Shown here: in pieces, positions 47,377 to 48,218 of the stretch
How positions within the stretch are numbered: position 1 is the first letter of the stretch
How the letters are laid out: the number at the start of each line of letters is the position of its first letter
NCBI RefSeq assembly: GCF_002976435.1
Contig: NZ_PUGF01000002.1
Span: 248,001-312,000, forward strand
Direction: 5' to 3'
DNA length: 64,000 nucleotides
Source of the DNA: Solimicrobium silvestre
Lineage (GTDB): Bacteria > Pseudomonadota > Gammaproteobacteria > Burkholderiales > Burkholderiaceae_D
Notes under the pieces: model-generated
The model's database searches: none
The model's input: only the letters and a program-made list of their open reading frames with translations
What the model was told of the DNA's origin: nothing
Program-made: the position numbers and the translations under genes

Positions 47377-47382
47377 AACTAT

Positions 47383-47411
47383 TTGAAAAAAATGATGGAA
47401 CTTATTTAAAT
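47383..47411 (+). promoter_or_regulatory. Sigma-70-like promoter for the predicted small RNA
   Basis: TTGAAA at 47383-47388 (-35) and TTAAAT at 47406-47411 (-10) are separated by 17 bases on the plus strand, near the ideal spacing. The start site would be about 47417-47419. No open reading frame follows on this strand before a terminator 70 bp later. Confidence 0.55.
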
Positions 47412-47417
47412 AGCCAC

Positions 47418-47518
47418 ACTCATATTTGGCGGATAAGTGATTATCCCCTGCTTCACTTCCCTGAGCGGGCACCTCTATGGTGTTAACCCCCAGTGCATTT
47501 ATGTACTGGGGTTTTTTT
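47418..47518 (+). ncRNA. Predicted ~100-nt small RNA convergent with engB (Spot 42-like position)
   Basis: A transcript from the promoter at 47383-47411 would run about 100 nt to a strong terminator ending in T7. It contains local hairpins: GGATAA-GTGA-TTATCC, CCC-TGAGC-GGG and CACC-TCTAT-GGTG. Between the first two is a single-stranded pyrimidine-rich patch (CCCCTGCTTCACTTCC) that could pair with ribosome sites. The arrangement, a small RNA facing the end of engB, is the same as spf (Spot 42) facing yihA/engB in E. coli and the ErsA position in Pseudomonas. No ORF is seen. Assignment is inferred from promoter, terminator and position; I did not recognise a sequence family. Confidence 0.5.
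47488..47518 (+). terminator. Intrinsic terminator of the predicted small RNA
   Basis: CCCCAGT-G-CAT pairs with ATG-T-ACTGGGG around two T residues (47488-47511), followed directly by seven T (47512-47518). The T-run is on the plus strand only, so the structure terminates plus-strand transcription, although no plus-strand protein gene lies upstream. It overlaps the engB stop codon. Confidence 0.8.
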
Positions 47519-48218
47519 ATTCAGCAACGGCAGCATTAACGGTTGGTTCTGGTTCACGATCCAAACCTAACAATTCCCGAATTTTCGCATCGGCTTCTTC
47601 GAGGCCCACCCGTTTCAGTGCGGAGAACAGTTGCACGGTATAAGGGAACGGTTGTCCGTTTTCATCCACATAACTGGCTAGCACAGACTGAGTCAGGCGC
47701 AAAGCGTTGGTTGAATCATTGCGATTTAATTTATCTGATTTGGCTAATATGCAATGTACCGGACGACCAGTAGGTGCAAACCATTCAAGCATCTGTTTAT
47801 CTAAATCAGTGAATGGACGACGTGCATCCATAATAAGAATCAATGCGCTAAGTTGATCGCGATTTTTTACATACGCGCCGAGCAATTCATTCCAATGATT
47901 TTTGGCCGCTCCCGGTACTTCAGCGTAGCCATAACCAGGTAAATCTACCAGCAAAGCGCGGATTTCTTCCACAATCGTCGGATCTTTACGATGTTGCGCA
48001 ACATGCGCGCCGCCGATTGAAAAGTAATTAATATGCTGGGTTCGGCCTGGCGTTTTGGACGCAAAGGCTAATTTTTTTTGGTTGCATAAGGTATTAATGG
48101 CTGTCGATTTACCGGCATTGGAACGCCCGGCAAAAGCCAGTTCAGGAACTTGCAGATCAGGCAAGTTACGAAGATGGTTAACAGTAGTGAAAAAGCGTGC
48201 TTGCCAGAGGATGGACAT
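47517..48218 (-). CDS. engB: Ribosome biogenesis GTP-binding protein YihA/EngB
   Basis: A 233-residue EngB/YsxC-type GTPase needed for assembly of the large ribosomal subunit. The G1 motif is [14 protein letters not shown] near residue 30. [11 protein letters not shown] follows near residue 57, G3 is DLPGYGYA near residue 92, and G4 is [10 protein letters not shown] near residue 157. The C-terminal tail [13 protein letters not shown] is charged and variable. The gene is divergent from the cytochrome c4 gene, and its stop overlaps the U-tract of the predicted small RNA on the opposite strand. Length is a little above the usual 200-215 residues. Confidence 0.94.

Follow-up and report, generated by a model that had tools for sequence, protein, structure and literature searches.

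Does the gap between hemB and engB in the window (the whole 64,000-nt stretch of Solimicrobium silvestre DNA analysed here) encode a small regulatory RNA and, if so, to which family does it belong, from which promoter is it transcribed and on what does it act? A preliminary description had proposed a candidate RNA in this gap, on the plus strand and facing engB, and the coordinates and strands agree with that proposal (Table 1). The ATG of hemB is at 47376 and the stop codon of engB at 47517-47519, both on the minus strand; the predicted RNA lies in the gap on the plus strand, and its 3' end overlaps the engB stop codon by two bases. A c-type cytochrome gene, which we take to be c4-like, is located on the far side of engB and is also a conserved neighbour of engB in many loci. 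Among the matches listed, the closest HemB proteins were those of a Janthinobacterium MAG (82%) and of Paucimonas (81%).

Table 1. Features of the hemB-engB locus (positions in the window)
Feature	Position	Strand	Basis or remark
hemB (porphobilinogen synthase)	46360..47376	minus	NCBIfam NF006762, 510 bits, cutoff 297; divergent from the RNA
Sigma70-like hexamers TTGAAA (47383-47388), 17, TTAAAT (47406-47411); possible second promoter	47383..47411	plus	read directly
-35 element GGAACTT, RpoE/AlgU-type (ECF sigmaE)	47397..47403	plus	conserved motif in relatives
-10 element TCATA, same sigmaE-type promoter, N16 after -35	47420..47424	plus	conserved motif in relatives
Predicted anti-hemB small RNA, ~89 nt	47430..47518	plus	start placed by homology (+/-2)
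5' hairpin GGAUAA-GUGA-UUAUCC	47431..47446	plus	7/7 pairs changed on both sides (40 sequences); mostly outside the Rfam model
RF02837 (anti-hemB) match	47444..47520	plus	model 1-81 of 81, full length
Hairpin 1; pyrimidine-rich apical part UCACUUCCCUG (47453-47463) a candidate seed	47447..47469	plus	fold; helix 2, 98.6% of cells paired (40 sequences)
Hairpin 2	47470..47482	plus	fold; helix 3, 76.9% of cells paired (40 sequences)
Intrinsic terminator and U7 tail	47488..47518	plus	terminator scan and fold; putative Hfq-binding tail
engB (yihA/ysxC)	47517..48218	minus	NCBIfam TIGR03598, 197.5 bits, cutoff 124; RNA faces its 3' end
c-type cytochrome gene	48414..49067	plus	NCBIfam c-type cytochrome matches, all below cutoff

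Family Assignment of the RNA

The only match in the window at the Rfam cutoff was to RF02837 (anti-hemB, or Burkholderia RNA 7), with a score of 50.5 bits (gathering score, 49.5; E = 7.8e-9), that is, 1 bit over the cutoff. The RNA resembles the family in sequence and structure along the whole model, although its seed loop is altered, off the family consensus, and its terminator loop is short. One copy was found in the genome of the window (E ≤ 0.001). Very probably, the RNA is a genuine small regulatory RNA and belongs to this known family; that it is a described Rfam family had been overlooked in the preliminary description. Membership of two other families was rejected: the comparison with the Spot 42 model (RF00021), which had been suggested as a check, gave 18.9 bits against a gathering score of 80, and RF02278 (toxic small RNA, ncS27/S17) gave 15.9 bits against 50.

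Previous studies have detected the anti-hemB RNA of B. cenocepacia, ncS04 (105 nt), by Northern blot, and its level by qPCR was unchanged in all seven conditions tabulated (PMC5688073). ncS04 co-purifies with Hfq and has the arrangement ← → ← (PMC4603805), as in the window, where the plus-strand RNA is flanked by minus-strand genes; anti-hemB has also been predicted in B. pseudomallei (PMC3521395). No function of anti-hemB or ncS04 is stated in the accessible parts of these three papers, and no report of a sigmaE promoter or of an ErsA link for anti-hemB was found in the accessible text of the open-access literature.

Extent and Fold of the RNA

The start of the RNA was placed at 47430 because a count of 105 nt (the length of ncS04, itself from B. 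cenocepacia) back from the end of the T-run in B. ambifaria (L021) ends at the base of the 5' hairpin, six bases past TATGAT. The equivalent position in the window, six bases past TCATA, is 47430. The count was also done on Burkholderia sp. L006, where it ended two bases further on than in L021. The strong terminator proposed earlier is present at 47488-47511, with a 10-bp stem, a loop of 4 and seven T. When the region 47430-47518 was folded, four hairpins were obtained at -36.7 kcal/mol (z = -5.1), and none of 200 shuffled sequences was equally stable. The minimum-energy folds of two genus relatives (L114 and L115) were somewhat unlike that of the window. An exposed patch, CCCCTGCTTCACTTCC, had also been proposed; the patch is not wholly exposed, its opening bases being paired in a hairpin, and the predicted loop (~47453-47463, UCACUUCCCUG) is itself partly paired in the minimum-energy fold.

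Alignment A1 was composed of 40 copies from the order, one of which (L068) came from a MAG named only as Proteobacteria. A four-helix structure was written from a pair scan of A1 and tested on the same alignment, which favours it: 85.2% of cells were paired (77.3% in shuffled alignments), 23 of the 29 pairs were changed on both sides (12.9 shuffled) and covariation was 0.295 (0.162 shuffled), with 0 of 500 shuffles reaching the paired-cell, double-change or covariation values. When partners were shifted by one column, the paired cells fell to 49-53%. In this alignment the 5' hairpin is a covarying element that the Rfam model omits.

A SigmaE-Type Promoter Motif Upstream of the RNA

The preliminary description had read TTGAAA-17-TTAAAT as the promoter. 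These letters are present in the window (9 of 12 to the consensus, and missed by the rule of the simple promoter scan), but in the four other genus genomes TTAAAT was present in two (L113 and L114) and TTGAAA in none. The element kept in the genus and family alignments is (G)GAACTT-N16-TCnnA, which overlaps the sigma70-like hexamers and which we take to be the RpoE/AlgU consensus. All five genus copies carry (G)GAACTT or GAAACTT-N16-TCnTA, the window having GGAACTT-N16-TCATA. As judged from this conservation, the sigma70 pair is probably not the main promoter, and it was rejected as such because the pair is broken in the four other genus members. By the simple scans, the surrounding 2 kb contained 4 promoter-like sites (3.2 in shuffles) and 2 terminator-like sites (2.4 in shuffles).

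For counting, the expression AACTN-N15-19-TCNNA was composed after the first alignments had been inspected and was fixed before the copies from other orders were fetched. The profile recognised a copy in 112 of the 144 loci scanned, missing L115, which has the motif. The motif was found upstream of 75 of these 112 family copies (shuffled mean 2.2, maximum 7) and was absent from 37. Among copies from other orders, it was present in 17 of 24 (the full-length loci among 28 strong ones) and in 15 of 20 weaker ones (L334 being a poor match), against shuffled means of ~0.5 and ~0.6, respectively; it was found in none on the opposite strand and in none at 500 bp upstream. Single bases were shuffled for the 112 copies and the rpoE control, and two-base blocks for the other-order and genus test. 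The distance from the motif to the loop anchor was 78-81 bases in three Cupriavidus copies and 56-71 in most others.

As a control, a like motif was found upstream of 24 of 31 rpoE genes, that of the window genome included (shuffled mean 2.2). Twenty-three of the 24 end in TCnnT, not TCnnA, and the strict form counts only 1 of 31; the -35 element and the spacing agree between the rpoE and RNA promoters, and the last letter of the -10 element differs. The genome of the window has one RpoE over the equivalog cutoff (302.7 bits; cutoff, 236), with GGAACTA-N16-TCTAT upstream of its gene, and an RseA-like gene after it that scored 30 bits, far under the RseA family cutoff. From these similarities we infer that GGAACTT-N16-TCATA would be used by RpoE.

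On a HemB tree of 79 rows (those copies up to L115 whose HemB could be read), 44 of which bear the motif, the label changed 9 times, compared with 26.2 times when labels were shuffled. Rows of Paraburkholderia, Pandoraea, Cupriavidus and Gallionellaceae carry the motif, which is absent in 23 of 23 Comamonadaceae/Sphaerotilaceae rows, three Burkholderia-type rows and two Caballeronia-type rows; in some of the isolated losses, the motif may be present in a form just outside the expression. The three Burkholderia-type copies (L006, L021 and L082), which differ from the window in having no sigmaE-type motif, fit the constant level of ncS04 and give no support for a role in stress. Several copies of a Comamonadaceae-like and Sphaerotilaceae-like set (L025-L033, L047-L049) have sigma70-like elements directly 5' of the 5' hairpin. 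In the same set, hairpin 2 has a common loop with GACAGC.

Distribution Within the Order

The RNA was found in five of five genomes of the genus, four over the RF02837 cutoff and the fifth at 42.3 bits. Across the family, 25 of 39 genomes were over the cutoff, and the 39 of 39 that matched at E ≤ 1 include chance matches. Across the order, 299 of 399 genomes matched at E ≤ 0.001 and 245 were over the cutoff; 3 of 14 control genomes also matched in this search, none of them over the cutoff. In 23 of the 25 named loci that have the RNA without engB, the RNA lies ≤250 bp from hemB.

Twenty-three genomes were reached via named loci; with a covariance model built from A1 (R1), 8 of them showed no match at E ≤ 1 and 10 further ones only weak matches (E 0.02 to 0.8). 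Genomes negative for R1 at this threshold include Xanthomonas, Vibrio, an Achromobacter MAG, Comamonas, a Janthinobacterium MAG, Yanghanlia and Lautropia. The hemB-engB gap is short in L003 (Janthinobacterium MAG), L016 (Achromobacter MAG) and L040 (Polynucleobacter). In the genomes of L003 and L016, R1 had no match at E ≤ 1, and in that of L040 only one of E 0.02; the RNA has therefore probably been lost or heavily altered in these three genomes.

Relatives in Other Orders Occupy the polA-engB Slot

A search of 274 genomes of the wider class with R1 gave matches at E ≤ 0.01 in 85, of which 83 are not members of the order. Among 28 strong loci from other orders (L199-L226), engB was found in 17, polA in 16, and polA, engB or the cytochrome gene in 25; hemB was found in none. 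The corresponding count was 16 in a weaker set of 20 loci, picked from matches that came without loci. Combined, 41 of the 48 loci have polA, engB or the neighbouring cytochrome gene, and 21 have polA as well as engB, arranged as polA → RNA → ← engB; all three genes were absent from three strong and four weak loci. Given these 41 of 48 loci, anti-hemB occupies the slot of ErsA and Spot 42, with hemB in the place of polA in the window, and the earlier suggestion of a base-pairing type of small RNA in the Spot 42/ErsA position is upheld by these R1 relatives at polA and engB. Of five other-order loci tested against RF02837, one (L200, 58.4 bits) reached the cutoff, which was not reached by L260 or L115. 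Comparison across these genomes shows an RNA of four predicted hairpins, kept in one slot, with a sigmaE-type promoter motif in many lineages.

Tandem copies were seen in L349, L350, L352, L354 and L355 (12 copies, 10 with a motif of their own). Beside engB there are four copies in L349 (G603:C33), two in L352 and two in L354, and six of these eight have their own sigmaE-type motif; those of L349 also adjoin polA. L350 and L355 (G693 and G582) contain paired copies with the sigmaE motif, and polA and engB were not found there; from their translations, the neighbours in L350 are presumably ratA/rnfH and smpB.

Comparison With ErsA, Spot 42, and sX13

ErsA, which is encoded in the polA-engB gap, is sigma22-dependent and acts with Hfq; it also activates some targets, amrZ and anr (accessible parts of PMC8395346 and PMC8575079). 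Like the RNA of the window, it faces engB, and its sigma22 promoter is of the same sigmaE/sigma22 class as the motif found here, where use by RpoE would be expected. Hfq is known for both ErsA and ncS04. ErsA is longer (132 nt, compared with ~89 nt predicted here) and its other neighbour is polA rather than hemB, although the polA-engB position is taken by the relatives in other orders. Since position and promoter type both fit, ErsA is a better comparison than Spot 42.

In the Pseudomonadales, R1 matched 18 of 145 genomes at E ≤ 0.1, weakly (best 0.0026); of 20 such weak loci, only L260 is flanked by polA and engB, and in L250 the distance to engB is 1.2 kb. Over 32 loci (116 kb), a model that also includes the other-order copies (R2) matched 13 times at E ≤ 0.05. 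As read from the coordinates, nine of these matches (two in L260) are located past the 3' end of engB and face it, one is Spot 42, and those in L291 (the best of all 13), L285 and L283 are in other places or in the wrong orientation. Some Pseudomonadales engB gaps matched R2 (L298, 1.1e-5; L280, 3.7e-5; L276, 3.3e-4); R1 matched such gaps only weakly. With a looser expression, GAACT-N15-17-TCnn(A/T), the motif was found on the expected side in 11 of 30 Pseudomonadales engB loci, a count that leaves out three low-scoring ones and has no shuffled control. These loci are L271-L273, L276, L280-L282, L294, L295, L298 and L299, and several of them also have C-rich stretches and terminators. No Rfam family was found in 10 Pseudomonadales engB loci, chosen from the 30 for having the motif. 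From the sequences compared, common descent of anti-hemB with ErsA is likely.

Spot 42 (spf) also faces engB (yihA), and its slot in E. coli is the polA-engB position shared by the other-order relatives, whereas the RNA of the window has hemB for polA. The preliminary description had pointed to the likeness of the terminators. The likeness is true (arms CCCCAGT..ACTGGGG; L249), but it was counted as chance rather than as evidence, since the sequence of the stem varies from one species to another within the genus. R1 found nothing at spf; for R2, spf was the best place in 7 kb, but at 14 bits and with an alignment that is mostly terminator. When 46 bases of the anti-hemB family were used as the query for a near search, E. 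coli genomes gave no match.

In Xanthomonas, the sX13 RNA is encoded downstream of polA and its loops are C-rich, and RNAs at the polA locus of distant bacteria have already been compared structurally there; by the title of one section, sX13 is active without a requirement for Hfq (accessible parts of PMC3771888). Its position 3' of polA and its stem-loops with C-rich motifs are like those of the anti-hemB relatives. The genome of X. euvesicatoria contained no R1 match at E ≤ 1.

Proposed Mode of Action and Rival Explanations

We consider it probable that 47430-47518 is an anti-hemB RNA that is induced by RpoE, assisted by Hfq and represses distant mRNAs in trans through its pyrimidine loop. 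Envelope stress would free RpoE, which would transcribe the RNA from GGAACTT-N16-TCATA; Hfq would hold the U-rich 3' end, and hairpin 1 would pair, through its pyrimidine loop, with purine-rich ribosome-binding regions of distant mRNAs. The paired mRNAs would be repressed, by analogy with the action of ErsA on algC and oprD. The conserved loop of the family, UUCUCCUCCCUGA, is the complement of a purine-rich ribosome-binding sequence, and the loop has ACUUCCC in four of five genus members. This complementarity, the U tail, the binding of ncS04 by Hfq and the case of ErsA together suggest Hfq-assisted repression at ribosome-binding sites under envelope stress. A search with the complement of the seed gave 28 non-self matches and one with the reversed pattern gave 16; none of the 28 was convincing as a target. 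Only L314 and L321 lie just upstream of a plausible start codon; from the translations, we take these genes to be alpha/beta hydrolase-like and thioesterase-like, respectively.

A constitutive anti-hemB RNA, driven mainly by sigma70 from TTGAAA-17-TTAAAT and starting at ~47418, is unlikely. The hexamers do exist in the window, the sigmaE motif is missing from all 23 Comamonadaceae/Sphaerotilaceae rows and from the Burkholderia-type rows, several motif-less rows have sigma70-like elements just 5' of the 5' hairpin, and the level of ncS04 is constant; however, the pair is broken across a genus in which five of five copies have the sigmaE-type motif, and the start would fall ~12 nt before the hairpin, unlike that deduced for Burkholderia. 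The name anti-hemB implies a cis-acting antisense RNA controlling hemB (or the 3' end of engB), and the RNA is indeed divergent from hemB and extends two bases into the engB stop codon. This is decidedly improbable, given relatives at polA/engB without hemB and others at hemB without engB; since each neighbour is missing in lineages that keep the RNA, action in trans is indicated, rather than on hemB or engB.

Membership of RF02278 has almost no likelihood: the weak match mentioned above, and the description of that family as having CU-rich unpaired stretches facing ribosome-binding sites (accessible part of PMC5688073), are outweighed by its gathering score and by the anti-hemB score, which is better by 34.6 bits. 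Just as implausible is that there is no functional RNA, and that a terminator ending the engB region stands next to a chance promoter; the simple promoter and terminator scans were at chance level for this stretch, but the family match, the covariation and the conserved promoter and position speak against chance. An RpoE-induced RNA acting in trans is the most probable reading.

Meaning for the Family

The promoter and the position lead to a direct prediction, namely that anti-hemB is a member of the envelope-stress (RpoE) regulon and acts in the manner of ErsA. With somewhat better than even odds, anti-hemB, ErsA and probably other polA-locus RNAs (sX13, perhaps Spot 42) derive from one ancient sigmaE-controlled gene, which would have been at the 3' end of engB since before the split of beta- and gammaproteobacteria. 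In the lineage of the window, hemB would then have become the new neighbour, and the promoter would have been rewired to sigma70 in Burkholderia and the Comamonadaceae group, and maybe also in enterobacteria. If true, several small RNAs of the engB/polA locus would have a single origin, and entire lineages would have exchanged control of one conserved RNA by a stress sigma factor for housekeeping control.
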